A stretch of DNA of 35,952 bases from a virus. Under the pieces are notes generated by a model. That model saw nothing but the letters and a program-made list of their open reading frames with translations, did not search any database and had not been told where the DNA came from. Location of the stretch: IMG/VR virus record IMGVR_UViG_3300030085_000965, positions 44,349 to 80,300 of that record; one strand, 5' to 3'. The position numbers and the translations under genes were made by a program. Positions within the stretch are counted from its first letter, which is position 1. Each line of letters starts with the position of its first letter. Shown in pieces: positions 2,827 through 35,004 of this stretch.

Positions 2827-2855
2827 AGTATACATAGGTCTATAGGATATGTCAA
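2827..2855 (-). promoter_or_regulatory. Strong sigma70-type promoter (TTGACA-17-TATACT)
   Basis: On the minus strand TTGACA (2855-2850) is followed, after exactly 17 bases, by TATACT (2832-2827). This is almost a textbook host housekeeping promoter and would start transcription about 2820, just before the ATG at 2802. It would drive the small gene and the CobT-like gene early in infection. Its -35 box overlaps the first codons of the divergent plus-strand gene starting at 2849. Confidence 0.75.
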
Positions 2856-3736
2856 CATCTATGACAAAATACATTTATTGGGCACCATCTTGCTTTGGTA
2901 AGAGTCATGCTTGCTTTACCTTTGCAGCAAATAACAAGGTGTCGATGAAGTATGGAACATATGGTGAAGGGTTTCAAGTATTCTCTGGCACAGTAATCGA
3001 CCAAGAGAAGTATAATAGGCACGGATTCCCTGGCAAAGTGCAGGTTGAATCACTATCAGTAAGGAAGAAAGACATATACACATCACAGTGTATCAGAAGC
3101 AAGTTTATTGCTGGTGATCCTGATCATGCATACATCCCACAGCATGAGAATAAAGCGATGACTGAGGGAGAACTAACCCGTAATCGTATGCTCAATGATC
3201 TACCTAGTGAGCATATCCCAGACTGTGCATTTCCTGAGCACAAAGTAGATGAGAACAATACATGGTTAGATAACCTGAGTATTATGGTGCGTGACTTCAA
3301 TCCAGATCTTATCTGTTTAGAAGAACCATTGCCCGTGAATGTTGATATAAACTATGCTGATTACAAGCACGTTGTACCATACAAGTCCACAGACTTCAAG
3401 CAACTGGTGTTTGAATATCTGACAATCCTAGACATTGATGGTCTATCAACTGCTAAAGTATTCGCTTTTCTAGATCAACGTCTAGTCCATTTTGAACGAC
3501 TACTAGATTATCTGAGACTACAAGATATTGACTGGCAGTGGTTAGACATATCCAAATGGGAGAACTACAAATACTTTGGATTGCAAAACATTCCTGATCA
3601 TGATATGGCAGACCACAAATGGATGTCACCTGAGATAAGAACAGATCGTATTGATTACTATTACTTACTTGCTGAGAGATATATTATATCACGGAGCGAA
3701 AGACTAAATCTACTCTACCCTGAGGTGAAGAACTGA
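2849..3736 (+). CDS. Unknown protein, first of two tandem paralogues
   Basis: Unrecognised 295-residue protein. It is clearly related to the next gene: both begin with a (K)Y-x-YWAP-x-x-FGK-x-HAC motif, share YKHV(V/I)PYKS in the middle and a W(Q/E)WLDIS motif near residue 230. The start at 2849 has AGG about 10 bases upstream; an internal ATG at 2861 (MTKYIYWAP) aligns better with the start of the paralogue and may be the real one. There is no signal peptide and no membrane segment. It precedes kdsB, a sugar isomerase and a HAD phosphatase on the same strand, which hints at a sugar- or surface-related role, but no catalytic motif is recognised. Its stop overlaps the next start (TGATG). Confidence 0.75.
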   Translation: MSTSMTKYIYWAPSCFGKSHACFTFAANNKVSMKYGTYGEGFQVFSGTVIDQEKYNRHGFPGKVQVESLSVRKKDIYTSQCIRSKFIAGDPDHAYIPQHENKAMTEGELTRNRMLNDLPSEHIPDCAFPEHKVDENNTWLDNLSIMVRDFNPDLICLEEPLPVNVDINYADYKHVVPYKSTDFKQLVFEYLTILDIDGLSTAKVFAFLDQRLVHFERLLDYLRLQDIDWQWLDISKWENYKYFGLQNIPDHDMADHKWMSPEIRTDRIDYYYLLAERYIISRSERLNLLYPEVKN

Positions 3737-4644
3737 TGACTCAAAAGTATATGTACTGGGCACCACAGATCTTCGGTAAAGATCATGCATGTGCTCTATT
3801 TGAACTCAATGGTAGAACGTCACTAAGATACTTTGGTGAAAAATCACCAGGTGATAAGTGTGTCTTTGCATGGGGTGAGATTGTAGACGATTACTTATAC
3901 AATCGCACACTAGTTCTTAGCAAGGACTTTGACGAAGACAAGACAGATATACAGTCAAACGAGTTCTTTATTCAACCATGTGCCATGATCCCTGCATTTT
4001 GGGCAGGCAACTATATCTTTGAAAGTCAAGATCATGTGCTCCAAACACGAAAAGAATGGTATGAATGGCATCAAGATACTAACCCAGATGCAATCAACTG
4101 GGATGAGATAGACATACCTGATCCAACCAAGATCCCAGAATACCTAGACAAGAATATACCTGTCATGGAGAACATTCAGCGTATCTTTGATAATGCTGAT
4201 CCTGATCTAGTGTGTTCAACAGTCTCAATGAGAGATGAAACTATTAACATAGATCTAAAGAAGTATAAGCATGTTATACCATACAAATCTCAAGGATATA
4301 AGTATCTACTGCTAGATCTTTTAGGTAGCACCAATCCAGAATTCTTACAGGACTTCAAAGCGGTAGAGAATCTATTCAAAGAACAACTTCACAAGTTTAG
4401 GACATATATCAAATGTCTAGAAGAAAACGAATGTGAATGGGAATGGTTAGATATATCTAATGACGAAGATTACAAGGAAAAGTTTAACATAGAGAAGACA
4501 TTAGACTTCATCTCCAATGATCCTAGGTGGTTTGATCCTATTGTTCAGACAGATATGACGATGAAATGCTCTAATCTAGTGGACAAATACTTTGACAGGT
4601 ACTATAATGTCCTTAACGATTTCTTTCCTAAAGTATTAAGCTAA
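3736..4644 (+). CDS. Unknown protein, second of two tandem paralogues
   Basis: Unrecognised 302-residue acidic protein, paralogous to the preceding gene through the YMYWAPQIFGKDHAC start, the YKHVIPYKSQGYK block around residue 180 and the EWEWLDIS block around residue 235. The start codon shares one base with the previous stop, so translation is probably coupled and the two products may work together. The protein is rich in aromatic and acidic residues with no transmembrane segment. Context suggests involvement in the nearby sugar module; the family itself is not recognised. Confidence 0.75.
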   Translation: MTQKYMYWAPQIFGKDHACALFELNGRTSLRYFGEKSPGDKCVFAWGEIVDDYLYNRTLVLSKDFDEDKTDIQSNEFFIQPCAMIPAFWAGNYIFESQDHVLQTRKEWYEWHQDTNPDAINWDEIDIPDPTKIPEYLDKNIPVMENIQRIFDNADPDLVCSTVSMRDETINIDLKKYKHVIPYKSQGYKYLLLDLLGSTNPEFLQDFKAVENLFKEQLHKFRTYIKCLEENECEWEWLDISNDEDYKEKFNIEKTLDFISNDPRWFDPIVQTDMTMKCSNLVDKYFDRYYNVLNDFFPKVLS

Positions 4645-4710: not shown

Positions 4711-5421
4711 ATGTTCAAAGGTAAACAGATTATTTGCATTATTCCTGCTAGAATGTCATCCGGCAGGTTTCCTGGTAAACCACTTGCACGAATCAATGGG
4801 CGTGAGATGGTGCTACGAGTAGCAGATATTGCTCGTAAATCTAAATACCTTGATCATATCATTGTTGCTACTGAAGACGAAGTAATCAAACGAACGTGTG
4901 AAGTCAATGGATATGAATCACGAATCACAGGCAGACACTATACCTGCACTCATCGCGTGGCAGAGGTATCTGAAACTCTGGAAAGTGATTATATTGTTAA
5001 TCTACAAGGGGATGAACCACTGACTGATCCTCAATGGATTGACGACATGATTGAATATGGTGTTACACATGACTGTGACATGGTGCAAGCATCACGGGAA
5101 CTAGAACCCGATGAGATTGCTGATGACGATGTTGTAAAGATGGTTGTCAATAATGGTGTGGTAACACATATGGTGAGAACACCAGATATTATCACCGCCA
5201 ACACTGTGACACAGTTGGGTCTCTACATGTATAGACTAAATGTTATACGAGACTTCCCAAACTTAGACATGACATTTGTCAAACATTGGGGTGGACTTGA
5301 CACCATCGGATTCTGTGGTAAGTATCAAGTGTCGCCATTTGACCTGAAATGTGGTAAAATAAGGGCTGTGGATCGCTCCTGGCACATACAAGAGATCGAG
5401 CATGAACTTGCAAAACGTTGA
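4711..5421 (+). CDS. kdsB: 3-deoxy-manno-octulosonate cytidylyltransferase (CMP-KDO synthetase)
   Basis: A 236-residue nucleotidyltransferase of the KdsB family, which activates KDO with CTP to form CMP-KDO, the donor for inner-core lipopolysaccharide. The visible motifs are IIPARMSSGRFPGKPL (residues about 10-25, the CTP-binding signature), VATEDE (52-57), HRVAEV (81-86) and NLQGDEPL (97-104). Its length is close to bacterial KdsB (about 245-250). The C-terminal third is divergent: the usual GVDTP-like ending is replaced by AVDRSWHIQEIEHEL, so substrate preference could differ (another 3-deoxy acid such as sialic- or legionaminic-type). The start has no clear ribosome site but gives the canonical N-terminus. 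The next gene overlaps its 3' end by 20 bases. Confidence 0.8.
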   Translation: MFKGKQIICIIPARMSSGRFPGKPLARINGREMVLRVADIARKSKYLDHIIVATEDEVIKRTCEVNGYESRITGRHYTCTHRVAEVSETLESDYIVNLQGDEPLTDPQWIDDMIEYGVTHDCDMVQASRELEPDEIADDDVVKMVVNNGVVTHMVRTPDIITANTVTQLGLYMYRLNVIRDFPNLDMTFVKHWGGLDTIGFCGKYQVSPFDLKCGKIRAVDRSWHIQEIEHELAKR

Positions 5422-5863
5422 CATAAGTCTTGGTGCTAAGATGCTGGATAAAGCATCACGCATTGCGATCATTGGCAGTGGTGGTAATCTTGCCATTGCA
5501 CAACATGCTGCGTCTGATATACAACGGCACACAGGAAAGTTCTGCTTTGCTCCTGATAGTGTTCACCTTACTGCTGTTGGTAATGACATTGATTGGAAGT
5601 ATGAGTGGATGGCATATGCTGCACAACACTGTGACATGGTGTTAGGTATCAGTGCACGAAATCAATCGCCTATGATCAGAGTCTTAGACGAGTTTGCTTT
5701 TGGTATCCCTACAACAGTCATCGCACCTAAGAAGATCGAGACGCCATACATTCACACAATCTGTATCCCATCCAGATACTATCACGAGTTTGAAGTCAAC
5801 GCCCTCTGGACAATCTACATGCTCATGGAGTATAATGGAGTCAAGTTACCCGAACTCCCATGA
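5402..5863 (+). CDS. SIS-domain sugar isomerase, phosphoheptose isomerase (GmhA)-like
   Basis: A 153-residue single SIS domain. IAIIGSGGNLAIAQHAASDI (residues 22-41) corresponds to the phosphosugar-binding GNGGSxxDAQH segment of GmhA; TAVGNDIDWKYEW resembles the GmhA segment after it; MVLGISARNQSP corresponds to its second SxSGxS-like loop. GmhA converts sedoheptulose 7-phosphate to D-glycero-D-manno-heptose 7-phosphate. The C-terminal helix HEFEVNALWTIYMLME retains a Glu at the place of the GmhA QE motif but seems to lack the histidine(s) usually found in it, so activity or substrate may be altered (an arabinose-5-phosphate isomerase role is possible). It overlaps kdsB upstream by 20 bases and the HAD gene downstream by 4 (ATGA). 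Confidence 0.7.
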   Translation: MNLQNVDISLGAKMLDKASRIAIIGSGGNLAIAQHAASDIQRHTGKFCFAPDSVHLTAVGNDIDWKYEWMAYAAQHCDMVLGISARNQSPMIRVLDEFAFGIPTTVIAPKKIETPYIHTICIPSRYYHEFEVNALWTIYMLMEYNGVKLPELP

Positions 5864-6210
5864 TTCAACACGTATCGGAAGGTGCACCAGTTTACTGCTT
5901 CGATATTGATGGGACACTGTGCACTGAAATGATGGGTGACGTTGAGAACTCACAACCCATCGTTTCACGAATCAATGTTGTCAATGATCTGAAGATGAAA
6001 GGTGCTACGATCTACCTACAGACAGCACGAGGTATGGTCAAGGCGAACAACGATCAAGCACTCGCTGATAAAAACATGCGAGAACTTACCGAACGACAAC
6101 TAAAAGAATGGGGTGTTGAGTACGATGCACTGTTTTTCGGTAAACCCCGTGCCATGAATTACATCGACGACAAGGGGTGGAATGATAGTGACTTTTTTCG
6201 TCAGTTTTAA
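5860..6210 (+). CDS. HAD-superfamily phosphatase, EcbF/BcbF capsule-biosynthesis type
   Basis: A 116-residue HAD phosphatase without a cap domain. Motif I is FDIDGTL (nucleophile D15, acid/base D17), motif II is the Thr of LQTARG (T55), motif III is the Lys of FGKPRA (K95) and motif IV is the DD of NYIDDKG (D103-D104). The TARG and GKP...DD arrangement matches the small capsule phosphatases EcbF/BcbF rather than KdsC. It is the last gene of the plus-strand sugar module, overlapping the isomerase by 4 bases, so it probably dephosphorylates a sugar-phosphate intermediate made by its neighbours. Its stop overlaps that of the converging minus-strand gene. Confidence 0.75.
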   Translation: MIQHVSEGAPVYCFDIDGTLCTEMMGDVENSQPIVSRINVVNDLKMKGATIYLQTARGMVKANNDQALADKNMRELTERQLKEWGVEYDALFFGKPRAMNYIDDKGWNDSDFFRQF

Positions 6211-7187
6211 ATAGTAGCGTATATATCAGTACACCTATCACTACATTTAATATTATTAACTTTTATCGTTTTCTCGCGTAACCATTCGTAGGCAGTAATA
6301 TACTCTTCATTTACAACCTGTTTATCTTCTTCACGAAGAAATCCTATCTCCAGGAGATCATTGTATAGATCTTCTGGAGATTTTAGTTGACTGAGACCTA
6401 GCATCTTTGCAGTCATAAATGCACGATCATCCTCAGGTAAGATGCTCCACGTATTTGTATACTCGAAGAACTTCTTCTGAGTGTCATTCAGATAGTCCCA
6501 TCCCCATTTTAGATGACGAAGAATCTTTGTCTTACTTTGTGGAGACTCCTCAATAGTTTTTGTGCGGTAATATTCTAACCTGTCATATATGTGCACATGC
6601 TTACCAAGGAACTCAGCATAGTATATGTCAGTGCCGGGCCAAGGAATATAAACGTGCTCGGACTGTAAGAATAACCGTGACAAGATAAACTGTCTATTAA
6701 CACGATCATTCATCTGGATGAACTCACTATCCTTAGGCAACTTTAAGTTCTTCCATTCTTTCCAGATGTCACATTCACGCCATGGCAATAAGAATCTAAT
6801 AGGACGTGATGCCCAGTTGATAGCATCCTGAACATTTCTGTAATCAGCATCACGAATAGTAACCTGATCATCTCGTGGGATAAAGAATAACGAACCTTCA
6901 GGTTCATATGATTCTGTTGTTGCAACCTTGGCAAGATCCCATAGAAATGGACATGCACCATAATATGATTGCATCCTAGACTTCTCCAACTTCTTTGCGT
7001 GGTATTCACTCCACACATATACTTTGTTAGAGTTAAAACATTCTGGTTGTGTATACATCCAGTCGCGTCTACCTACAACCTCGCGACATACACCCGGAAT
7101 AACACCATACAAAAAAGAGGCATCTGGTAAACCCAGATACCTCTGCATAGAATGATGCCACTTATCTGATTGATCGGCAAAAAACAT
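6207..7187 (-). CDS. Possible glycosyltransferase-like protein (GT-B-like C-terminal half), uncertain
   Basis: A 326-residue protein without a clear family match by eye. Features suggestive of a GT-B-type sugar transferase are SEHVYIPWPGTDIYYAEFLG followed by KHVHIYDRLEYY (about residues 185-220), which resembles the donor-binding 'SD...G....E....GKPVI.Y' segment, and SLFFIPRDDQ, which resembles the linker preceding it. It converges with the sugar module (kdsB, isomerase, HAD), which supports a role in glycan transfer. The start at 7187 lacks a Shine-Dalgarno sequence; a second Met occurs 14 codons in. Alternative: a fibre-associated protein, since the next gene upstream belongs to the fibre cluster. 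Confidence 0.5.
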   Translation of the reverse strand: MFFADQSDKWHHSMQRYLGLPDASFLYGVIPGVCREVVGRRDWMYTQPECFNSNKVYVWSEYHAKKLEKSRMQSYYGACPFLWDLAKVATTESYEPEGSLFFIPRDDQVTIRDADYRNVQDAINWASRPIRFLLPWRECDIWKEWKNLKLPKDSEFIQMNDRVNRQFILSRLFLQSEHVYIPWPGTDIYYAEFLGKHVHIYDRLEYYRTKTIEESPQSKTKILRHLKWGWDYLNDTQKKFFEYTNTWSILPEDDRAFMTAKMLGLSQLKSPEDLYNDLLEIGFLREEDKQVVNEEYITAYEWLREKTIKVNNIKCSDRCTDIYATI

Positions 7188-7199
7188 TATGAAAGGTAA

Positions 7200-7595
7200 T
7201 CAATAGATCTTAGAAATACCATCAGTGGTAGTTCTTGCGAATCCAACAGTATTAGTTTCTTCGACGAGAATAGTATCAACTTCTTCGTCTGTCAGTACAC
7301 CTTTTTCTAGGAGGATCTGAATGAGACCCTCCGTAGAAACTTTAATCTCAGTTTTATTTACCGGGATCCATTTATTACTATCAGTGTACTCAGCAATCTC
7401 ACCATACTCTCCTTCAAGAGCACGACGATAGATTTCCCGAGAATGTTCACTAACATCGGTTGGAGAAGCAGTGTATTGAATCCACTCCTCCTCGATGTCA
7501 ATGAAATTCACATCAATATCAAGAACATTGTGTTCTTCATTTGCCCATTTGGGATTGCGAGCATCCATAATGGTATAATATGGAGATTCAGACAT
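7200..7595 (-). CDS. Small conserved fibre-cluster protein, unknown function
   Basis: A 131-residue acidic protein beginning MSESPYYTIMDARNPKW. The segment IDVNFIDIEEEWIQYTASPTD followed by SREIYRRALEGEYGEI is a pattern I associate with small proteins encoded directly after phage tail-fibre genes, some of which are fibre assembly chaperones; this is inference. It lies 21 bases downstream of the stop of the fibre-tip gene and 12 bases upstream of the start of the next gene, so it belongs to the late fibre operon. There is no signal peptide or membrane segment. Confidence 0.6.
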   Translation of the reverse strand: MSESPYYTIMDARNPKWANEEHNVLDIDVNFIDIEEEWIQYTASPTDVSEHSREIYRRALEGEYGEIAEYTDSNKWIPVNKTEIKVSTEGLIQILLEKGVLTDEEVDTILVEETNTVGFARTTTDGISKIY

Positions 7596-7615: not shown

Positions 7616-8167
7616 TCAAGCGTAACGCAACCAAAGTGTAGCGGAGTATGCAACTGTGGTGTTAACTGTTAGTTCAGAAGCAACGTTAACAGAAGCAGTA
7701 CCAGAGTTGATAGTACCACTGCCAAAGTTAGCAGACTTACCAGGAACAGAAACGTTACCTGTAACAGAACCTGAAACGTTACCCGTGGAGGCAGTGTTCT
7801 GAGAAACTGTGCCGGTGTTGACTAGAGCAGAACCCGAGTCATAACCCATACATCTCCAGTTACCCGAAGGGGTAGTAGAGTTATATAGTCTACCAGTTGC
7901 GTCCGAATAACGCAAGCTAGAACCTGCTAGGGTATCACCAGGGTTGTATGTGGTGTTACCTGACGACTGTTGCATGAAGGCATATGTGCCTACATCACCA
8001 ACAGATGCGTTAGCGTTAATGCTTGCAGTAATAGAAACATTAGTGATGCCGCTGATACGCTGGTCAGCGTCTACAGTAACCTGTGCTACTTGGTTAGCGG
8101 ATCCATAAGTTCCGGCGCTCGCATCAGTTGTGTTCGTTACATTCGAACCAGTACCGTATAGTGCCAT
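7616..8167 (-). CDS. Tail fibre / receptor-binding tip protein
   Basis: A 183-residue Ser/Thr/Gly-rich protein. The central VGTYAFMQQ...NPGDTLAGSSLRY...GNWRCMGYDS and the C-terminal LWLRYA follow the pattern of the C-terminal, receptor-binding domain of many phage tail fibres ('GTWRCMG ... TLWLR'). The region between consists of short beta-strand repeats (GNVSGSVTGNVSVPG). The start is well supported: GAAGGAG lies 10-15 bases upstream and a late-promoter box CATAAATA lies about 22 bases upstream. It is probably a separate distal tip subunit for the preceding long fibres. It lies last in the fibre series. Confidence 0.75.
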   Translation of the reverse strand: MALYGTGSNVTNTTDASAGTYGSANQVAQVTVDADQRISGITNVSITASINANASVGDVGTYAFMQQSSGNTTYNPGDTLAGSSLRYSDATGRLYNSTTPSGNWRCMGYDSGSALVNTGTVSQNTASTGNVSGSVTGNVSVPGKSANFGSGTINSGTASVNVASELTVNTTVAYSATLWLRYA

Positions 8168-26118: not shown

Positions 26119-26346
26119 TTAGTCTTCATAGATACGACACTCGTCGGCGTCGGGATTAGAGTCGCAGTATAGTTCTAGTGGTGTGGGATCGTGATGATCA
26201 CCATCTGCGATTTCTTTTGCGTGGTTTTTTGCGTAGGCTTCTAGCTCTTCTAGTTCCCCCTCAATGTGTCTGCGCTGTTGCGCTGATGTCATTGGGTTTG
26301 CAAGGATCTCGCGATCCTTCTCAATGTGAGTTTCAATGTCTTTCAT
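26119..26346 (-). CDS. cp12: CP12-like Calvin-cycle inhibitor (auxiliary metabolic gene)
   Basis: A 75-residue acidic protein whose C-terminus, PLELYCDSNPDADECRIYED, is almost the textbook CP12 signature (DPLELYCDENPDADECRVYED). The pair C61-C70 with eight residues between corresponds to the redox pair that binds GAPDH. The N-terminal helix (IEKDREILANPMTSAQQRRH) fits the AWD_VEEL-type region but lacks the N-terminal cysteine pair used with PRK. CP12 ties GAPDH and phosphoribulokinase into an inactive complex and so shuts down the Calvin cycle; cyanophages carry it to divert carbon to the pentose phosphate pathway. It overlaps the hub gene upstream by an ATGA and abuts the next gene, in the middle of a baseplate operon. 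Confidence 0.85.
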   Translation of the reverse strand: MKDIETHIEKDREILANPMTSAQQRRHIEGELEELEAYAKNHAKEIADGDHHDPTPLELYCDSNPDADECRIYED

Positions 26347-27593
26347 GATAGCTCTCTGTAGGAATCTCTAACCAAGCTCAAAGCAGTCACATCAGCGTCA
26401 GCACCCGAAAACTTGTGGGACAATGATCTAATCATGTAGAATCCGGAACTTGGATTCTTGCCCAGATCTGCTTTTTGTGTATTTATCTTAGGAACTTCGC
26501 ACTGTACCATTTGCCCAGCACGTAATGCTAGGTTCATTGGTACAGTGATCTCTAGTGACTGTGAAAATAGAGAAGAGTACCTTGCTGCTGCTTGTGATTG
26601 ATAGAATGGTTGATCTTGTGGTGATGTTAAATCACCTTTATCGGCAATACATCCGGCATCAAGGATGGATAACATTCTGCGGGATGGACGATCAATATAA
26701 TTCTCTGGGATATTTGCCTCATCATTAGAGATAGAGATCATGTTCTCCTTTACAGTCTTACGGTAATCATAAAGATGTTCCGTAACACCACGAGTATTGA
26801 TGTCAAAGTACATGTTAGCACTCTTATACGCTCCGCGCCTTAACTTGTTCAGCAAATCATGACTTGAGGACCATGCTGGCGGAGAAGTCATACGGAAACT
26901 ATTTCTAGGATCTAGACCATCCGTTGACTGCGAATAGTAGAAGAATGGTACATCCTCAGTGTTAGACAAAATGGTATCGATTGCCCTAAAGTTATATCCA
27001 TCCATAGTCTCATAAAACAGGAATCCAGCACTACCAGTTGTTAACGAACTGCTACCAGTTCTAGCCTTAGAACATAACCAAGTACAAGTGAATAGTGGTT
27101 TCCTGTAGTTGCCCATGAAATCATATTCATTGGCACTGTCCTCAACCATAACGATTCGATCATCAGAAACCAGGAGTTCCTGCTTCAGAATCTTTTTGAT
27201 ACTATTTGAGATCTTACCTTTATATTTTCTAGAGACTCTAACCATATGGTTATCGAATGCTCCAGCAGTCTCACATACTAGAGTATACTGTTCTCGCTTT
27301 GCTGAGTTTACTTGTCCTTTAATATCACTAATGATTAGTGGAAACTCTTCGTACCTAAACTCACCACTTGGATGGGTAATAGTAATGTATAACTTCGATC
27401 CTGCCCTGATTGGTAGTTGATTAAGGAATCCATAGGTATCCTGAATGTCAACTTCTAAGTGGACACTAGAATCTGTTACGTTCTCATAGAAAGCAATGAG
27501 ACCGGATTGTGGTGCAAGAGATTGTCTACGTTCCCCATCAGGTGACTCTACAACCAGACGAGTAATCTTATGTCCAGCTAGATTTTGCGACAT
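26343..27593 (-). CDS. Baseplate hub / tail-tip protein, gp27-like
   Basis: A 416-residue protein starting MSQNLAGHKITRLVVESPDG. Residues about 1-110 contain VHLEVDIQDTYGFLNQLPIR and LYITITHPSGEF strands, and the C-terminal 70 residues (LALRAGQMVQCEVPKIN, then SGFYMIRSLSHKFSGADADV) match the tube-like domain of T4 gp27-type hub proteins, which carry the spike. It is located directly upstream of the CP12, gp5-like and spike genes, as expected for hub order. GATAAATA at 27627-27634 and an AGG ribosome site precede ATG 27593. The assignment is by motif and context, not alignment. Confidence 0.6.
   Translation of the reverse strand: MSQNLAGHKITRLVVESPDGERRQSLAPQSGLIAFYENVTDSSVHLEVDIQDTYGFLNQLPIRAGSKLYITITHPSGEFRYEEFPLIISDIKGQVNSAKREQYTLVCETAGAFDNHMVRVSRKYKGKISNSIKKILKQELLVSDDRIVMVEDSANEYDFMGNYRKPLFTCTWLCSKARTGSSSLTTGSAGFLFYETMDGYNFRAIDTILSNTEDVPFFYYSQSTDGLDPRNSFRMTSPPAWSSSHDLLNKLRRGAYKSANMYFDINTRGVTEHLYDYRKTVKENMISISNDEANIPENYIDRPSRRMLSILDAGCIADKGDLTSPQDQPFYQSQAAARYSSLFSQSLEITVPMNLALRAGQMVQCEVPKINTQKADLGKNPSSGFYMIRSLSHKFSGADADVTALSLVRDSYRELS
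26480..26487 (-). promoter_or_regulatory. Possible internal late promoter (GATAAATA) upstream of cp12
   Basis: The minus strand reads AAGATAAATACACAA within the gp27-like gene, 133 bases before the cp12 ATG at 26346. Its sequence is the same as the box at 27627-27634 over ten bases. If active it gives cp12 a late transcript separate from the hub gene. Confidence 0.3.
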
Positions 27594-29245
27594 TAACCGA
27601 ACCTAGACGCCTGAAGCATTTGGGTGTATTTATCAGCAACCTCAGAGGGATCAATATTGACAAATGCAATGCTATCACCACCAGTAGGTCCACCACCGTT
27701 AATGATAGTATTGTTACTGTCAAACAGGATTGAAGACTGATCACCATACTTTTTCACGTTTTTGATTTGTTGTTTTAGTGACGGTCTCTTAGGATTCAAC
27801 AAATCCTGAATATTTTGACCAGGATATTCTTGCCTCAATCTACCTTCAACTCCTCTTAAAGGTTCATTTGAAAGAACATTACCATCGTTAAACTTAGTAA
27901 CCTCGGGTCGCTGTTGTGGACCTTGTTCTGGTTTCACACCACCTGTTGGTCTTCTACCCATCAGGTCACGAACAAACTCTGTATTTTTCGCGTCAAGATT
28001 TTGCATGTCTCGCATAGCATCCTGCTGTGCTCTTCTTGCAGCATCGTCAGAACCACGAAGATCCCTAGGAGTGTTTTGTTGGAATGTTTTGTCTATTTCT
28101 ACTCGTCTTTGTGGTAGTTTCTTTTGTATAGGGTTAGTGGGTCTTGGTGTAACAGGAGTTTTAGGAGTTGTGACTTTTGGTGGTGGTGTAATAATGACAG
28201 GACTACCAGGTCTTGCCAATGGTGGTTTCACAATAGGCGGTCTCATGCCTTTACCACGCCCAATACCCATGGCAACGCCCTGGATTATAGCTTCGATTAG
28301 TGGACGGAACGTTGGATCGATATTAAAATTTTCAAGTAGTTTATCTGTCGCATCTGGTTGTTCATAATATCTCTCATAAAGGTTTACCATACCTTCATCA
28401 TCCAAGGCAAATCTTCTTAAGACACCATCAAGAAATCCAGTTCTTGGTGTAGTTGGTCTTATACCTCCTGTGCTAGCATCATCAATGTCAAGTTCTTCTT
28501 CTATTTCATCACAACCACATGCCTCAGAAAGACCGTTTACATATGCGGCAAACTTATTGATGACACGATCAAACTTATCTAAAGATCCTGAGAATAATGT
28601 TGGAGCACCAACTATAACTCTACGCTCTTCTTCTTTTCTTCTTTCATCTACACCAGTTACTTTATCTGATATAGCGCCGCCGAGCATACCACCCAGCAAA
28701 CTACCGGCAACGAATCCTACACCAGGGATCGGTATTAGCGCCTGACCGATGACACCACCCGCGATTGCTCCAGCAGTGCCCGCAGCAGTGCCTGAAATCG
28801 CCTGTGTTTGCGTCTGACCTTCTCCACGACGCCCAGCATAGTCCAGACCAGCAAACAGCAGTTGCAGCGGTCCTGCTCCTCCTCTGATTCGTCCACCAAA
28901 GCGTCCAAGGCGTCCAAGGCGTCCTAGACCCCTTGTAGGACGCACTACAGGAGGTGCTGAACCCTTTGGTGGTTTAAGACCACGCAGACCCCTTGCAAGA
29001 CCACCTAACCCAAGGGCACCCAGTACACCTTGAAAGATTCCATTATCCTTATCTTCTTTCTTCTGTAAGGATTGTAGGAGTGACTTATATGTAAGTTTTT
29101 TCTCCTCTAGTAACTTTTTCTTGAGGACCAAGATCCGTCTAGAAGCAGCAGACTCCACATCTGCCGAAGTGCCAAACAGTTTACTGACACTAAGAGACTT
29201 AGTTTGAATCTTTGTGCTTACTTTTAGGATCTTGTTAAAGTTCAT
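27593..29245 (-). CDS. Large tail protein with glycine-zipper region
   Basis: A 550-residue protein. Residues 30-65 are Lys/Leu-rich helix (ILVLKKKLLEEKKLTYKSLL); 72-130 are Gly/Arg-rich; 150-192 form a glycine-zipper membrane-like segment (GTAAGTAGAIAGGVIGQALI, then GVGFVAGSLLGGMLGGAIS), typical of tape-measure and tail-tip proteins that insert in membranes. About 330-400 is Pro/Thr-rich and disordered, and 385-500 is Gln/Arg-rich. Its start overlaps the end of the next upstream gene by 4 bases (ATGA). It may act as a tape-measure or ejected tail protein (T4 gp29 is of similar length) but the family is not recognised. Confidence 0.55.
   Translation of the reverse strand: MNFNKILKVSTKIQTKSLSVSKLFGTSADVESAASRRILVLKKKLLEEKKLTYKSLLQSLQKKEDKDNGIFQGVLGALGLGGLARGLRGLKPPKGSAPPVVRPTRGLGRLGRLGRFGGRIRGGAGPLQLLFAGLDYAGRRGEGQTQTQAISGTAAGTAGAIAGGVIGQALIPIPGVGFVAGSLLGGMLGGAISDKVTGVDERRKEEERRVIVGAPTLFSGSLDKFDRVINKFAAYVNGLSEACGCDEIEEELDIDDASTGGIRPTTPRTGFLDGVLRRFALDDEGMVNLYERYYEQPDATDKLLENFNIDPTFRPLIEAIIQGVAMGIGRGKGMRPPIVKPPLARPGSPVIITPPPKVTTPKTPVTPRPTNPIQKKLPQRRVEIDKTFQQNTPRDLRGSDDAARRAQQDAMRDMQNLDAKNTEFVRDLMGRRPTGGVKPEQGPQQRPEVTKFNDGNVLSNEPLRGVEGRLRQEYPGQNIQDLLNPKRPSLKQQIKNVKKYGDQSSILFDSNNTIINGGGPTGGDSIAFVNIDPSEVADKYTQMLQASRFG
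27627..27634 (-). promoter_or_regulatory. Possible late promoter (GATAAATA) upstream of the gp27-like gene
   Basis: The minus strand reads GCTGATAAATACACC, 33 bases before ATG 27593, inside the 3' end of the 550-residue gene. It matches NATAAATA followed by CAC. Distance to the start is like those of the clear promoters. Confidence 0.45.
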
Positions 29246-30924
29246 CCTACACCTAGGATAGCGTTAGAGGTAAAATGATCAAAACTACCACTAAATTTCG
29301 AAGAAGCAACGATATCAGGTGAACGTGGACCAGCTTTCTTTGGGCTCACAACTTTAGTTTGCCCAGGAAGTTGCAATACAATAGGATCACCAGATCCAGT
29401 TGCTTGACCATCCATGGCATTATCAAAAGAATCCACAATATTCTGAAGATTATTTAATGGAGTCTCGACTGGACGCATTGCGACGGCACTCGAAAGAGGA
29501 TCACCAACACTACCTCTATCACCCAGATCAACCTTATCAATCTGATTTAGTCTTCTTTCAACAGCATCTGAGAACTTAGTGATTGGAGTATTAAATCCAT
29601 CACGGAATACTTCTCCTCTTTCAATGAGTCTTTGAAGATTACCTTCACCGAGTTGTCCGGCACCAAGCATCTTAACACGCTCGACAGGACCCATTTGACG
29701 ATATTTTGGAGACAACTTCAACATCTGACGATGCATGTATAAAGTTCTACCCATGTAGATCCTTTCTTGCAACTCTGGATTGTTGAGATACTCTTGAGTT
29801 GTAGGAGGAGTTATGCCAATAATCCTAGATGCTGAGTCAATCTCTGGTCGTCCCATTTGATATCGACCAGCAAAAGCCATGCTAGATCCACCCATCTGGT
29901 TGTATCGAGCACCTTCAACATCAGCAACACCTTGTTTTAGTGCATTGTATTGTTCCTGAGTGATGCCAAGTTCTTCTAGTGATGTTTTTTCGTCTACAAA
30001 CGGAACTTGTGGAGTGCTTTGAGAAATCTGATAAGGAGTACCTATCTGTCTCCCTGTTAAATCAGCATTCTCGTCGTTGAGTTTATCTGCACTTTCTTTC
30101 TTATTGATCGGAATGAATCGATCAAGGATTGCACTGAACTTGTCAATCAATCCATTAAATCGTTCAACATCTGGTTCTGCAATAAGTGATTGACCTGTTT
30201 CTCTTCTTGTTAGTTCTGTTAGTCTGTCTTCTGCTGCATCAGCAGGAGCACCACCTAGGGCAAGTCCCCCAAGCAATGCAGTCGCACCTAAAGCGACACC
30301 AGCTCTACCACGAAGTCGCGGCAATTTCATTTTGGATCTCCCAATATTGTTGGTGGTCCCTGTCAATGGTGTGGGATTTGCACCAACGTTTTGTTTTGCA
30401 CCCCCCATTATACCACGTAATCCCAATGCGCCCAACCCAAAACCAGCACCCTTTTCCAGAATCTCTGGTGCCATCGACAAACCAGCAACACCCAGGTTTT
30501 GGAATCCTTGCCCAACCTTACCTTCACTGAAGGATTTAAATGCTGCTGCTCCTGCAATCAGGGCAATTTTAGATCTTAAATCAAACAATCCTACACGGAG
30601 ATTCTTAACTTCTTCCTCTTCATCCTTGATAAGTTTCTTTTCCTTATCAAATAGTTCTTTCTTAGCTTTAATGTCTAGGGCAACTCTTTTTTCGATTGCT
30701 TCTAGATTGCCATTAACTTTCTCCATCTCTAAGACGACCCTACCAATCTCACGGATCGTCTTAGGAGATACTTCTTCTGACTCTTTCTTCTTTATACCTT
30801 CTAACTTTTCTGCAGCAAGCGACATCCTCTTACGAAGAGGAAGAATAGCACGTTCCTGGCGTTCAGGATCCGCCATCGGAAACAGTTTAGATTTTGGAAT
30901 TACATCCCCAGTAATCCTAGGCAT
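29242..30924 (-). CDS. Large tail protein with lysozyme/transglycosylase-like domain
   Basis: A 560-residue protein. Residues 22-120 are coiled-coil helices; 120-230 are Ala/Gly-rich with two hydrophobic stretches (IALIAGAAAFKSFSEGKVGQ, then LGATALLGGLALGGAPADA); 245-290 is helical. Residues about 325-460 look like a phage lysozyme-like fold: QGVADVEGARYNQ with E337 as candidate catalytic acid, SSMAFAGRYQMGRPEIDSAS, LNNPELQERIYMG, and VKMLGAGQLGEGNLQRLIER. This 'E-G...A(F)GRYQ...NNPELQE...GA.LG' pattern resembles transglycosylase domains of tail proteins. It would cut peptidoglycan during DNA delivery. It follows gp26 and the 60-codon ORF, the place of the tape measure in many phages. Confidence 0.55.
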   Translation of the reverse strand: MPRITGDVIPKSKLFPMADPERQERAILPLRKRMSLAAEKLEGIKKKESEEVSPKTIREIGRVVLEMEKVNGNLEAIEKRVALDIKAKKELFDKEKKLIKDEEEEVKNLRVGLFDLRSKIALIAGAAAFKSFSEGKVGQGFQNLGVAGLSMAPEILEKGAGFGLGALGLRGIMGGAKQNVGANPTPLTGTTNNIGRSKMKLPRLRGRAGVALGATALLGGLALGGAPADAAEDRLTELTRRETGQSLIAEPDVERFNGLIDKFSAILDRFIPINKKESADKLNDENADLTGRQIGTPYQISQSTPQVPFVDEKTSLEELGITQEQYNALKQGVADVEGARYNQMGGSSMAFAGRYQMGRPEIDSASRIIGITPPTTQEYLNNPELQERIYMGRTLYMHRQMLKLSPKYRQMGPVERVKMLGAGQLGEGNLQRLIERGEVFRDGFNTPITKFSDAVERRLNQIDKVDLGDRGSVGDPLSSAVAMRPVETPLNNLQNIVDSFDNAMDGQATGSGDPIVLQLPGQTKVVSPKKAGPRSPDIVASSKFSGSFDHFTSNAILGVG

Positions 30925-31099
30925 TTTGTGCTTGCGCTACTTCCAGACGTTGTTTCTCAAGGTAGTTCATAAGATAGTTAATGTAAATCTGCCGCTCCCA
31001 GGGCATGAGATTTTCAATCTCTGTCAAACTCCAGTTATGATACTGTAGGAGAGCAAAGTTAGTCTCGAAGTATTCATCAAGACTATTATGATATAGCAT
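30917..31099 (-). CDS. 60-codon ORF in the -1 frame of gp26 (tail-assembly chaperone C-terminal extension)
   Basis: Begins ATG at 31099, sharing one base with the gp26 stop (TAATG), in the -1 frame relative to gp26. The protein (MLYHNSLDEYFETNFALLQY, then NWSLTEIENLMPWERQIYIN) carries the PWER-x-IY motif frequent in downstream ORFs of tail-assembly chaperone pairs. The heptamer T TTT TTC lies just before the gp26 stop, so this ORF can also be reached by -1 frameshifting, giving about a 303-residue gp26 fusion. It lies upstream of the 560-residue tail protein, in the expected position. It may also be translated alone through the overlapping start. Confidence 0.65.
   Translation of the reverse strand: MLYHNSLDEYFETNFALLQYHNWSLTEIENLMPWERQIYINYLMNYLEKQRLEVAQAQNA
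31061..31084 (-). other. Possible hairpin downstream of the slippery site
   Basis: On the minus strand AGTCTTGA (31084-31077) can pair with TCGAGACT (31068-31061), eight pairs including one U-G, with an eight-base loop. It begins 20 bases after the slippery heptamer, somewhat farther than usual for stimulatory structures, so its role is uncertain. Confidence 0.35.
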
Positions 31100-31827
31100 T
31101 ACGCGAAAAAACTAGACAAACCCTCAACAACAATCACAGATTCAACCCCAGTATTAGGGTTAGTAATGCTAGTTGTATAAGACAGTTTAGGCATTGTTGC
31201 AAAGAAGTTTTCAACTTCCTTAAACTGTGCTGAGTTTAGTTGCTCGATAAAAGAAGTCAACTCTTTATCGGTACAATCACTTGCAGACCAGGACTCGTCT
31301 TTAGTATAGATCTGATCGATACATGCAACAACAGATTTAAATGCTTGATCGATTACTTCTTTATCAGTCTCTTTAGAGATTGCAAAGTTATTATCGATAA
31401 ACTGCTGCATTGATGGATATTTGAACTGAATGAACAGTCCTTCACCAAGATCAATGGTATCAGTATGACCTTCTGGGATGATCAACTCAACATCAGAAAT
31501 GTTGATCTTAATAGGAACTTGAGTTTCACCATCATCCTGACAAACTGCAATAAGTTCTACAGATTCGCCAACAGATTTTCCTCGGATGTTCAGGAAAAGA
31601 TACTCTAGTTCGAACGTAGGAAGTTCATCAACCTTGACACCACGAGATAAAATGCATGACTTAAGTACATCTTTAATCGCAGAGTTAATCTGCTTTTTAT
31701 CACCACTTTCTAGAGCAATCAGAAGAACTTTTTCTTCCTTAACGAGAAATGGTCTGTACTTAATATTCTTGCCTGTAGACAAGAGTTTCAACTCATATGA
31801 AGGTGTAGAAACCTTTGGTAGTGGCAT
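31099..31827 (-). CDS. gp26: Baseplate protein, T4 gp26-like (T4_baseplate family)
   Basis: A 242-residue protein starting MPLPKVSTPSYELKLLSTGK, which with YRPFLVKEEKVLLIALES and FELEYLFLNIRGKSVGE is the hallmark of the T4_baseplate family (gp26/gp51-type baseplate hub assembly proteins of T4-like cyanophages). It functions in baseplate hub formation, possibly as a chaperone that is not kept in the virion. Its C-terminus (VEGLSSFFA) ends at TAA 31101-31099, immediately after the slippery T TTT TTC heptamer. A perfect late box TATAAATA lies 21 bases upstream of ATG 31827. The next gene is in the -1 frame. Confidence 0.8.
   Translation of the reverse strand: MPLPKVSTPSYELKLLSTGKNIKYRPFLVKEEKVLLIALESGDKKQINSAIKDVLKSCILSRGVKVDELPTFELEYLFLNIRGKSVGESVELIAVCQDDGETQVPIKINISDVELIIPEGHTDTIDLGEGLFIQFKYPSMQQFIDNNFAISKETDKEVIDQAFKSVVACIDQIYTKDESWSASDCTDKELTSFIEQLNSAQFKEVENFFATMPKLSYTTSITNPNTGVESVIVVEGLSSFFA
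31105..31111 (-). other. Slippery heptamer T TTT TTC before the gp26 stop
   Basis: The minus strand reads AGT TTT TTC GCG TAA TG in the gp26 frame, so the heptamer T TTT TTC is placed exactly as X XXY YYZ. A -1 slip continues as CGC GTA ATG CTA TAT, joining gp26 after Phe241 in frame to MLYHNSL. The slip removes the stop codon two codons downstream. Confidence 0.65.
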
Positions 31828-31847
31828 AATATTTAACGTCAGTGATA

Positions 31848-31855
31848 TATTTATA
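31848..31855 (-). promoter_or_regulatory. T4-type late promoter (TATAAATA) for gp26
   Basis: The minus strand reads ACCTATAAATATATC, an exact TATAAATA 21 bases upstream of ATG 31827. It overlaps the stop codon of the upstream tube-fold gene. It would drive gp26 and the tail genes downstream. Confidence 0.65.
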
Positions 31856-32636
31856 GGTTAGTCTGAGCCTTATATCTTCGAGTAACATAGAAGTCATAGG
31901 CGAAGGTAACTGTTGTTTTTAACAGTGCCGCATCTCCATATTCAAGCGGTGCAGACACGATATTCGTCGGGAAAGCATTCTTGATAAAATATGTCATCGT
32001 AGATGGAGTAGAAGACTCCGCAGCATTAATACTAATCTCCTTAAGTCGATCTCCCCTATTCAAGTATTCGTTAGGAAAAACAGAAACCTGCATCTCACAC
32101 TTATACTCCTCAGGGTATCTCATTCTACGATATGCTGCAGCATCATTGAGCGATGAGGTAATATATGCATTACCGTCATCAATACTATTGCCCACCGTAG
32201 TTTTATTACTAAAGTTTACTGGTGAGATGAAATCCATCCAACCATCAAATACTGCATTAGTATAGTAATCTTTTTGAGTATAGTATGTCAGATTGATCTG
32301 TGGATGTGCTCTGTATGTTGCATATGAAGTCTTTACACCTTGACGGAGACCAGAAATCTCCTGTGTTTCAATAGAGGATCCTGGCAATACTGCCTCACTA
32401 CAAAATAGCGAAAGATACGACCCAATATCTCCACCACTCTCGAATCCTTGCTTTTTAATATGCTCCACTAACTTTCCATTAGCGGTATTAAACTTAACAT
32501 AAACATCATACGTATTAGTATACGCTGGAATGATATTTCCAATACCACCTTCAGTCCCGCCGCTAAGCAGAACCTCCGTGGGTAGTCTATATCTACCAGA
32601 GTTCATGATGTTTGGGACGTTGTTCTCCGCTGACAT
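31851..32636 (-). CDS. Tail-tube-fold protein, gp54/gp19-like
   Basis: A 261-residue protein starting MSAENNVPNIMNSGRYRLPT. The segments LFCSEAVLPGSSIETQEISG, VKTSYATYRAHPQINLTYYT, FDGWMDFISP and the C-terminal KNAFPTNIVSAPLEYGDAAL to YDFYVTRRYK have the layout of T4-like tail-tube proteins (gp19 and its baseplate paralogues gp48 and gp54). Being single-copy and beside gp26, gp48 and gp53 it is most likely the baseplate tube initiator gp54 rather than the main tube gp19. The ATG at 32636 has TATAAATA starting 13 bases upstream, giving a very short leader. Confidence 0.6.
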   Translation of the reverse strand: MSAENNVPNIMNSGRYRLPTEVLLSGGTEGGIGNIIPAYTNTYDVYVKFNTANGKLVEHIKKQGFESGGDIGSYLSLFCSEAVLPGSSIETQEISGLRQGVKTSYATYRAHPQINLTYYTQKDYYTNAVFDGWMDFISPVNFSNKTTVGNSIDDGNAYITSSLNDAAAYRRMRYPEEYKCEMQVSVFPNEYLNRGDRLKEISINAAESSTPSTMTYFIKNAFPTNIVSAPLEYGDAALLKTTVTFAYDFYVTRRYKAQTNL

Positions 32637-32648
32637 CTAAATAGTCGA

Positions 32649-32656
32649 TATTTATA
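32649..32656 (-). promoter_or_regulatory. T4-type late promoter (TATAAATA), minus strand, in a divergent gap
   Basis: The minus strand reads AGTATATAAATATCGAC, an exact late box 12 bases before ATG 32636, so the predicted mRNA would begin about 5-7 bases before the start codon. The 28-base gap also separates gp4 on the plus strand, where TATACT at 32655-32660 may be a weak host-type -10. Confidence 0.6.
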
Positions 32657-32664
32657 TACTATGT

Positions 32665-33099
32665 ATGTCATACAAGGGGAAGTTTAAACCGTCTCACCCC
32701 CAAAAATACAAAGGTGATCCTACGGGCATTGTTTATCGATCTCTATGGGAACTTAAGTTTATGAGATATTGTGACTTGAATGAACGTATTCTAAAGTGGT
32801 CATCTGAAGAGATTGTCATACCGTATAAGTCTCCCATAGATAATAAGTACCATAGATATTTCCCAGATTTTTACATCAAATATGCTGATAGAAGTGGGAA
32901 AGTGAAAGAAAGTTTGATAGAAATCAAACCGGCGAAACAAGTAAAAGAACCACGAAAACAGAAAACACGGACTAAGCAATACGTTGCTGAGGTCTACGAA
33001 TACGCCAAGAACCAGGCAAAGTGGAAAGCAGCAAAAGACTACTGCGAAGATAGATTATGGGAGTTTCAAATCTTCACCGAAAAAGAACTTGGAATTTAA
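32665..33099 (+). CDS. gp4: Head completion protein, T4 gp4-like nuclease
   Basis: A 144-residue protein with the gp4 (gp50/gp4) signature: MSYKGKFKPSHPQKYKGDP, IVYRSLWELKFMRYCD with conserved E29, EEIVIPYKSPIDNKYHRYFP followed by D68 in DFYIK and EIK (E86, K88). This is the PD-(D/E)xK nuclease core. In T4, gp4 helps trim or prepare the DNA end and completes filled heads before tail joining. It is the first of four plus-strand genes (gp4, unknown, gp48, gp53), an arrangement typical of cyanophages. The start at 32665 is chosen because it gives the conserved MSYKGK; ATG 32661 is out of frame. Confidence 0.85.
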   Translation: MSYKGKFKPSHPQKYKGDPTGIVYRSLWELKFMRYCDLNERILKWSSEEIVIPYKSPIDNKYHRYFPDFYIKYADRSGKVKESLIEIKPAKQVKEPRKQKTRTKQYVAEVYEYAKNQAKWKAAKDYCEDRLWEFQIFTEKELGI

Positions 33100-33121
33100 A
33101 TCCCAACTACCAGAATCAGAG

Positions 33122-33520
33122 ATGACATCCGACATCACAGTCGGTAATCTTATGATGTTTAGATACGAAGCAAAAACTGCTCAAGAACTTCCATATTACG
33201 ACAAATCTCCTTTAGTCGTCATGGTTCTCGAAGAGAACGAGGTCTTCTTCGGTACCAATATACATTACTATAAACCAAAGGATCGCGTAGGAATCATAGA
33301 GTATATCCGGGAGATCAAGGAGTCCGGAGTCGGAGATTACAAAGGGTTCCTCTTCGGGTCGGCGGGGTTCCATAAATACTTGAAATCTAATGTTAGAAGT
33401 TTGTTTTTAGACGTGGCAGCATCAGAATGGGAAAAAGCGGCACTGCTGCCCGCTGAAGAGTTTGTAAGAAATCTAGGGGGTGCAGAAATCTCCATCAGTG
33501 GTAGGAGCATCTACAAATGA
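33122..33520 (+). CDS. Conserved small protein between gp4 and gp48
   Basis: A 132-residue protein starting MTSDITVGNLMMFRYEAKTA. FRYEAKTAQELPYYDKSPLV and FFGTNIHYYKPKDRVGIIEY form a pattern I have seen in proteins of T4-like phages without assigned function; the aromatic HYYKP motif may be structural. The start is at 33122, since longer upstream frames overlap gp4 without a ribosome site. Its stop overlaps gp48's start (ATGA). CATAAATA at 33371-33378 within it could serve gp48. Role unknown, presumably late and structural. Confidence 0.65.
   Translation: MTSDITVGNLMMFRYEAKTAQELPYYDKSPLVVMVLEENEVFFGTNIHYYKPKDRVGIIEYIREIKESGVGDYKGFLFGSAGFHKYLKSNVRSLFLDVAASEWEKAALLPAEEFVRNLGGAEISISGRSIYK
33371..33378 (+). 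promoter_or_regulatory. Possible late promoter (CATAAATA) upstream of gp48
   Basis: The plus strand reads TTCCATAAATACTTG inside the preceding gene, 138 bases before ATG 33517. It matches NATAAATA followed by C, like other boxes here. It could add late transcription of gp48 and gp53, but could be chance. Confidence 0.3.
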
Positions 33521-35004
33521 ACACTTTCATTCAAAATAGACCCTATCAAAAGTTTCAGTTTGAATATAGGGGAAGAAAGTATAGTGGATTCTATCGTCTT
33601 ACCACTAAAGACTTTTTAAGACCATTTGCCATCTTCGACGATAGCACGCCCGCTAATGTCTTTGAACCTAGCGATGCCAAGTTTAAAGAACTTGCAAAAT
33701 CCAGTGGTTACCTACAGGATTTTCAGATAAGTCTATCAATGTTAAAGGCACAAGTCAACAGCCTAGGACTAGCAACCGAAGCAAACCAGTACGCTAATCA
33801 ATCTGGTCAAGGTGCAGTTTGGACTGCAACTGTACCTTATATTCCCGGAACTCCACAAGCTCCGAACTTTACTCCACCTGCTCCGCTTGCAACTCAGAAG
33901 AGAGAACCAATTGCCACGATGGCTTTGGGAGGATTTGATCCAAAACGAGTTATCAGTTCAGCGCCTGCACTACCGGATTTTGATAAAGCAAAAGCGTTAA
34001 AATATCCGATTGATGCCTACAATCAACCCCAGTTTTCTCAAGATCATATGATCATTGAGATGTTTAGTTATAGTCCTCCACAAGAGAACATGTTTGGATC
34101 AGCAACTGGTCGTGGTAGTAATGTTTCTTCAGGATTTCTAATTAACGGTCTTCGAAGGAATAATAATATCTCAGAGTTTCGTGGACTAGTAAAACTACCA
34201 ATCCCAAATCAGCTCGCCTTCACAAACGGAGTGAACTGGGGTGCAGATAGTGCGAACGCTTTTACTGCTGCTGCCTTTAACACTGCAACCAATGCGGCAC
34301 AACCGCTTCTACAGGGTAACTTTTTCGGTGCAACAAAGGAACTGGCGAACGATCTACTTAGCGGTGCTGCTAGTATCCTTGGTACGACAGGTACAACTGG
34401 TGGAACAGGAACACTATTAACAGCACTTGCTGCAAAATATGGTCTAGGTAAAATTGGCATTAACGTTGATCCTAACCAGTTTATTGCTCGTGCATCTGGT
34501 AATGCAATCAACCCAAACTTAGAACTTCTATTCAATGGTCCTAAACTAAGAGATTTTGAGTTTAACTTTGAGTTTGCTCCAAATGGTGAAGCAGAAGCAA
34601 CAGAAGTTAGAAGAATCATGAGATTTTTCAGACGTGGAATGATGCCAAGAAGAGGAGAAAATAACGATCTAATCTTCCTCGGTTCTCCTGATGTGTTCCG
34701 GATTCGTTATAGAACTGGAAATGAACGCATTCGTGGTCTAAATATATTCAAAATTTGTGCATTAACCGAGTGCACGGTTAACTTTGCTCCACAAGGGGAG
34801 TATCAGTCATATAAAGATTCGAAGGCAGGATCTCAACCCGTTTTGTCATCAATGACACTCAATTTTACGGAGTTAACACCAATCTTTGCTCAAGATTATG
34901 ATGCGGATGATGGTAAGGATCCATCACTCCAAGATATGTTCCAAGATTTTGGTAGCCCAGTCAAAGGTATAGAACCTCTAAACAGCGAAGACATCGGATT
35001 CTAA
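33517..35004 (+). CDS. gp48: Baseplate tail-tube cap protein, T4 gp48-like
   Basis: A 495-residue protein. The N-terminal part (MNTFIQNRPYQKFQFEYRGR) and long Pro/Thr-rich middle (about 105-160) are followed by a C-terminal domain with NAINPNLELLFNGPKLRDFE (from residue 329) and FNFEFAPNGEAEATEVRRIM RFF, the signature of T4 gp48-type proteins, which form the ring that starts the tail tube on the baseplate hub. It then has an FNFTELTPIFAQDYDAD-like end. Longer than T4 gp48 (364), mainly from the added Gly/Ala-rich region about residues 240-325. It is translationally coupled to the gene before (ATGA) and to gp53 after (TAATG). Confidence 0.8.
   Translation: MNTFIQNRPYQKFQFEYRGRKYSGFYRLTTKDFLRPFAIFDDSTPANVFEPSDAKFKELAKSSGYLQDFQISLSMLKAQVNSLGLATEANQYANQSGQGAVWTATVPYIPGTPQAPNFTPPAPLATQKREPIATMALGGFDPKRVISSAPALPDFDKAKALKYPIDAYNQPQFSQDHMIIEMFSYSPPQENMFGSATGRGSNVSSGFLINGLRRNNNISEFRGLVKLPIPNQLAFTNGVNWGADSANAFTAAAFNTATNAAQPLLQGNFFGATKELANDLLSGAASILGTTGTTGGTGTLLTALAAKYGLGKIGINVDPNQFIARASGNAINPNLELLFNGPKLRDFEFNFEFAPNGEAEATEVRRIMRFFRRGMMPRRGENNDLIFLGSPDVFRIRYRTGNERIRGLNIFKICALTECTVNFAPQGEYQSYKDSKAGSQPVLSSMTLNFTELTPIFAQDYDADDGKDPSLQDMFQDFGSPVKGIEPLNSEDIGF

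Follow-up and report, generated by a model that had tools for sequence, protein, structure and literature searches.

Sugar-metabolism genes of marine phages are usually listed singly, under the names of the E. coli LPS genes. A contig in the IMG/VR virus record IMGVR_UViG_3300030085_000965 raises the question of what such genes do together: a kdsB-like gene, a gene for a SIS-domain protein and a gene for a HAD phosphatase overlap one another in series, and a first-pass annotation had read them as a module for activation of a sugar of the KDO or heptose type. The sequence window analysed here (35,952 nucleotides, positions 44349-80300 of the 80.3-kb contig) was examined for the extent and conservation of this module, the sugar that it may activate, and the acceptor to which the sugar may be transferred. 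The genes belong to one conserved module, and this module is larger than three genes.

Gene layout and phage context

The three genes are real open reading frames on the plus strand (Table 1), with overlaps of 20 nt between the KdsB-type and SIS genes and 4 nt between the SIS and HAD genes, which make their co-expression likely. They are maintained together: all three are conserved jointly in dozens of viral contigs, far beyond chance. The first description of a three-gene unit was correct as to these genes and incomplete as to their neighbours. It overlooked a convergent gene on the minus strand, encoding a putative glycosyltransferase (GT), which overlaps the end of the HAD gene by 4 nt and belongs to the same larger unit. 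This GT gene follows a small tail-fibre gene on its own strand after a gap of 12 nt. Also overlooked were two paralogous candidate sulfotransferase-fold genes (A and B) on the same strand as kdsB, ending 66 nt before it. A promoter scan of the region was uninformative, with 22 sites compared to 17.2 expected.

Table 1. Coordinates of the module genes and their neighbours in the window.
Feature	Position	Strand	Basis
Accessory gene A, 295 aa, candidate distant member of a sulfotransferase-fold (Stf0-like) family	2849..3736	+	29% identity to B; profile comparison
Accessory gene B, 302 aa, paralogue of A	3736..4644	+	As A; wider family profile, hmmsearch 1.5e-8
KdsB-type cytidylyltransferase, cassette clade	4711..5421	+	Pfam, NCBIfam, alignment, tree
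SIS-domain protein, probable sugar-phosphate isomerase, new clade near GmhA/DiaA	5402..5863	+	Profile, motifs
HAD phosphatase, EcbF/BcbF-like	5860..6210	+	HAD motifs, profile; fused to SIS in 16/57 viral loci
Putative GT-B glycosyltransferase, new family, fourth core gene	6207..7187	-	55/57 loci; AlphaFold, Foldseek
Small tail-fibre-associated protein, immediately ahead of GT	7200..7595	-	phrog_1795 tail fiber protein, 1.6e-15
Tail protein, same strand as GT	7616..8167	-	phrog_4900 tail protein, 1.1e-7

The contig encodes T4-type baseplate wedge and tail-tube-cap proteins, and is therefore assigned to a T4-like myovirus. Genes of the psbA/psbD type are present in 8 of 15 related module-bearing records, so that cyanobacterial hosts are the best assumption, in agreement with the phage origin and cyanobacterial setting first proposed; this particular phage, in whose own 80-kb piece psbA had no match by tblastn, presumably also infects a cyanobacterium. 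The same phage has a second glycan-type locus upstream of the window (L003:6236-13540, approximately 26236-33540 of the contig), with genes for a Nol-like carbamoyltransferase, two radical SAM proteins and SGNH-hydrolase-like proteins.

Predicted proteins of the module

The KdsB-type protein matches the Pfam profile CTP_transf_3 at 8.8e-29 (101.3 bits; family cut-off 22.6) and the NCBIfam KdsB models at values down to 2.5e-40, yet it falls under every curated cut-off of the latter, for example that of TIGR00466 (98.2 bits; cut-off 155.2). The Pfam coverage ends at profile position 147 of 217, which bears out the divergent C-terminus remarked upon in the first-pass annotation, as does a change in the LEQLR segment of ordinary KdsBs. 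This segment of the sugar-binding C-terminal domain, whose LEQ residues are given a contact role in the KdsB literature, reads LDTIGF or similar (LDTxGF) in the KdsB proteins of this and related phage modules (hereafter cassette KdsBs), and IDMLR in host KdsBs that are linked to an aldolase. KdsB structures (CMP-Kdo synthetase) are the closest solved relatives of the cassette KdsB, and the cassette proteins resemble KdsBs of both the LPS and capsule types in their fold, their CTP-binding N-terminal half, their Mg-binding aspartates and a lysine, but differ from them in having HYTCTHR for an HxSGTxR-type motif as well as LDT for LEQ. In the A. aeolicus enzyme, Mg-A is liganded by D95 and D219, and K19 is conserved (PMC3149649); the corresponding D101, D221 and K23, assigned by motif, are invariant in 14 aligned KdsB proteins.

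Phylogenetic analysis places the cassette KdsBs in a single clade (support 100/100, branch 0.72), within which identity is 42-84%; the best cellular relatives have 28-45% identity over the matched part. The separate clade, together with LDT in place of LEQ, suggests a changed sugar substrate, and a substrate other than Kdo is the likelier case. No cellular copy of the cassette-type KdsB was confirmed among the matches listed when 84,980 genomes were searched with cassette-specific peptides, and in a broader scan the matches listed were all ordinary KdsBs. Neither a cassette-type SIS gene nor a GT gene was found beside the best 80 cellular KdsBs, which yielded one HAD match in a weak context (L241). 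A descent of the phage clade from the aldolase-linked host KdsBs was considered, but the two did not group together in the tree, the deep forks of which are weak.

The SIS protein as a single sequence matches Pfam SIS at 0.0046, under the cut-off, and a 28-row profile of it retrieves structures of GmhA and DiaA (1tk9 at 2.7e-6, and DiaA 2yva at 3e-6). The zinc ligands of GmhA are H64, E68, Q175 and H183, and all four have been described as fully conserved among its orthologues (PMC5705639). The phage protein shares the SIS core and the GNGG motif with GmhA and DiaA, and at the positions of the first two ligands it has a histidine (H35) and, four residues later, an acid; this acid is D39 rather than glutamate, however, and the later Q and H ligands are not kept (by position, H128 and then W136 are found), so that the full GmhA ligand set is absent by motif comparison. 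A new motif, [YF]HxxE (H128, E131), is invariant here and is also found in SIS proteins of Prochlorococcus glycan islands. The incomplete GmhA ligand set and the presence of this motif therefore indicate a protein with the isomerase fold that belongs to a clade of its own and is not a GmhA. From motifs and profiles it is probably a sugar-phosphate isomerase, with a possible metal site.

The HAD protein matches the NCBIfam EcbF-BcbF model at 1.1e-7 (31.8 bits, not reaching the cut-off of 162), and its profile retrieves the solved structure 9iqw, named "capsule biosynthesis protein", at 1e-16. HAD motifs I-IV are kept: D15, D17, T55, K95, D103 and D104 do not vary in an alignment of 8 relatives. 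It thus resembles the EcbF/BcbF capsule phosphatases (HAD-IIIA) in size, in all HAD motifs and in its solved relative, but it is far under the subfamily cut-off and is often fused to SIS. At the family level, the original identification of the three proteins as a KdsB-type cytidylyltransferase, a SIS isomerase-fold protein and an EcbF-like HAD phosphatase can be retained. Many cyanophage records contain a protein labelled "phosphoheptose isomerase" (phrog_1238; for example L006:7995-8330 and L007:11989-12333) that is an EcbF-type HAD phosphatase and not an isomerase; on the domain evidence, the label is a misnomer. The LPS-type cassette of P-SSM2, S-SSM7 and their relatives has this HAD gene in common with the present module and is likewise located among structural and fibre genes, but the partners of HAD there are small nucleotidyltransferases and a kinase of the HldE type instead of KdsB, SIS and GT.

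The fourth core gene encodes a protein of 326 aa for which direct sequence homology to known families was sought in Pfam, PHROGs and PDB, with no match. Its AlphaFold model (pLDDT 90.9, pTM 0.90) gave top Foldseek matches in PDB and BFVD that are mostly GT-B enzymes (best E 0.025 and 0.0039, TM approximately 0.3), including UDP-glucosyltransferases, TarL, LpxB and viral glycosyltransferases, none at E<=0.001. Two subgroups of the family are homologous over almost their full length (hhalign prob 98.6). The predicted structure is thus suggestive of a GT-B glycosyltransferase, an assignment of moderate confidence.

A family of proteins of about 290 aa is encoded near kdsB in 0 to 6 copies, several times between the KdsB and SIS genes. 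For one core member, the model from AlphaFold (pLDDT 90.1) has a clear best PDB match, the Stf0 sulfotransferase 1tex (prob 0.95, E 0.011). Profile comparison, as the sole link to this core (hhalign prob 91-96), suggests that genes A and B of the window are distant members of the Stf0-like family, and such neighbouring sulfotransferase-fold genes may add sulfate. Other sulfotransferase-like genes, recognized by motif only, are located upstream of kdsB in L005 and L049; considered as members of the A/B family, they had no similarity to it and no Pfam match. Long arrays of paralogues with a sulfotransferase-like N-terminal motif, LLNAGTxxSATTPLWYTL, are found in the phage contigs L293 (8622-14001), L297, L298, L299 and L300, where SGNH-hydrolase-like genes and a gene for an HpcH/HpaI aldolase are interspersed; one array gene was tested and has no Pfam family.

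Conservation of the module and its linkage to tail-fibre genes

IMG/VR was scanned with profiles of KdsB, SIS and GT. Cassette-type KdsB was found in 57 loci, a tally that includes the window, an identical copy of it (L008) and L005 (Marine virus AG-345-D19), and that does not count independent events, the viral contigs being partly redundant. SIS is present in all 57 of these loci, GT in 55 and HAD in 54, the absences including cut contigs, and there are several gene orders and orientations. The order KdsB-SIS-HAD with a convergent GT gene occurs in 42 loci, 16 of which have a fusion of SIS and HAD; GT-KdsB-HAD-SIS, all in one direction, occurs in 10, and the remaining loci are variants. Scans begun from GT or SIS alone recover the same module, and therefore the linkage is not an artefact of searching with KdsB. 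The module is well supported, and its four genes very probably constitute a functional unit. In a third group of phages (L169, L175, L179), only KdsB and SIS are present, beside curlin-like and CsgG-like genes; the gene directly upstream of kdsB there (280-304 aa) was considered as a GT homologue and showed no similarity by hhalign.

The position of the GT gene is also conserved. In 51 of 55 loci it immediately follows the small fibre-associated gene or its positional counterpart and is read in the same direction, and the arrangement is kept in L025 although the rest of the module there is reoriented. In the first GT subgroup, the gene ahead of GT encodes a PHROG tail-fibre protein. In the second, the counterpart gene has no PHROG match and is flanked by tail-fibre genes, and the entire module is situated within a fibre-gene array that holds several 2OG-Fe(II) oxygenases. 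At least four consecutive oxygenase genes of this kind are present in the module-holding array of L053 (2340-5134), and the question arises of fibre hydroxylation before glycosylation. A caution in reading this linkage is that glycan genes of phages gather next to fibre genes in general.

The occurrence of kdsB and of heptose genes in phages is already known, kdsB having been reported as a viral gene (PMC10653327, PMC9529941). The linked module with its GT and its fibre linkage appears to be new: no description of any of these was found in open-licence papers, subscription papers and preprints being outside the scope of the search.

Predicted pathway, sugar and acceptor

In the pathway that we propose, the SIS protein would convert a ketose phosphate to the corresponding aldose phosphate, and the HAD protein would remove the phosphate. 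An enzyme forming a C-C bond, usually that of the host and rarely that of the phage, and probably a pyruvate aldolase of the HpcH/HpaI type rather than KdsA, would yield a 2-keto-3-deoxy acid; the KdsB-type enzyme would activate this with CTP to a CMP-activated 3-deoxy-2-ulosonic (Kdo-like) acid; and the GT-B-like enzyme would transfer the activated acid to an acceptor, for which fibre proteins are favoured. That the module gives a CMP-ulosonate product is probable, and the whole model, with transfer and with fibre as the likelier acceptor, is held at about even chances.

A CMP-ulosonate pathway depends on enzymatic formation of the 2-keto-3-deoxy acid. The first-pass annotation had proposed a search for KdsA elsewhere in the genome; none (PF00793) was found in the 80-kb contig, which is a fragment, nor in 15 records of related phages, several of which span 170-220 kb. 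Among 151 Prochlorococcus-genus genomes, a host set reached via the record Prochlorococcus sp. AG-442-M23, KdsA is matched in 20 (16 over the family cut-off), the SIS profile in 19 (6 at E<1e-15) and the HpcH/HpaI aldolase in 14 (9 at E<1e-15). Strong aldolase matches are present in 4 of the 6 genomes with strong SIS matches, versus 9 in the whole set of 151 (hypergeometric p 8.6e-5, with thresholds picked after the data were seen and genomes that are partial and related), and strong KdsA matches in 0 of the 6. Eight of the nine strong Prochlorococcus aldolase genes have a KdsB-like gene at most 2.3 kb away, and in L276 the genes for SIS, HAD, aldolase and KdsB are adjacent in that order. The surface-glycan clusters of Prochlorococcus (L276, L277, L278/L279) encode the same kinds of enzymes as the phage module, with a homologous SIS (3e-21) and a KdsB that matches the phage profile at 5.5e-43, but they carry the aldolase, and the HAD adjacent to SIS is HAD_2, not EcbF-like; no homologue of the phage GT was found in these islands. 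Of 22 module-bearing phage records, one (the contig of L012) has its own HpcH/HpaI aldolase; four other phage contigs with an aldolase are fragments that have no KdsB match. This pattern suggests, as a lead, a KdsA-independent route.

Of the two acceptors suggested in the first-pass annotation, the phage's own fibre proteins are slightly favoured over host glycan because the GT gene ends the tail-fibre direction of transcription; the host surface as acceptor has a smaller, still appreciable probability. The same CMP-sugar chemistry could serve to remodel the host surface glycan during infection, for instance in blocking superinfection, which is how LPS-type genes of marine T4-like phages have been read in print (PMC7029224, PMC9529941), and related KdsB, SIS and aldolase genes do reside in the surface-glycan islands of Prochlorococcus. 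The co-directional abutment of GT on the fibre-associated gene, even in the reoriented L025, and the enclosure of the second-subgroup module in an oxygenase-bearing fibre array argue against this, and as a complete account it is judged unlikely, if the best of the alternatives.

Less probable again is that the product is CMP-Kdo itself, with SIS in the role of KdsD (arabinose-5-phosphate isomerase), a host KdsA yielding Kdo-8-phosphate, HAD acting as KdsC, and KdsB activating Kdo. Isomerase, phosphatase and cytidylyltransferase would be three of the four CMP-Kdo steps, the hosts with a KdsA match could supply the remaining one, and the closest solved relatives of the cassette KdsB are KdsB structures; but LEQLR is replaced by LDTxGF, the SIS profile retrieves GmhA and DiaA rather than KdsD, and the strong host SIS relatives do not co-occur with KdsA. 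The early doubt about KDO and heptose as substrates was also well placed, as the characterized LPS of marine Synechococcus lacks both (PMC4515613).

The heptose reading, in which SIS would give a heptose phosphate and HAD perform a GmhB-like step independently of the adjoining KdsB, could draw on the homology of HAD to the "phosphoheptose isomerase" of the S-SSM7/P-SSM2 kinase/nucleotidyltransferase cassette, but is rejected as very improbable in view of that protein being a phosphatase, of the missing GmhA ligand set in SIS, and of the lack of an HldE-like partner by tblastn in the 80-kb contig (where the hldE sought by the first-pass annotation was represented by the P-SSM2 HldE-like kinase and nucleotidyltransferases as queries) or in the cassette-bearing loci.

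The proposed transfer of a CMP-activated ulosonic acid to fibres, if true, would provide a concrete way to test for glycosylation of receptor-binding fibres by cyanophages, and would point to an uncharacterized CMP-sugar-acid pathway in Prochlorococcus, the characterized marine relatives of which lack KDO. In its most extended form, a KdsA-independent CMP-ulosonic route of picocyanobacteria would have been taken over in part by T4-like cyanophages, with a new GT-B family that glycosylates the phage's own fibres and with optional sulfation; so full a scheme is speculative and, taken together, rather unlikely. KdsB-like genes of the Prochlorococcus genus (L283:5444-8476, L281, L288, L289, L290, L291) adjoin differing C-C bond-forming enzymes: two types of HpcH/HpaI aldolase, an HMG-CoA-lyase-like protein as read from its sequence, or KdsA. 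Several distinct CMP-sugar acids are therefore suggested for these hosts.
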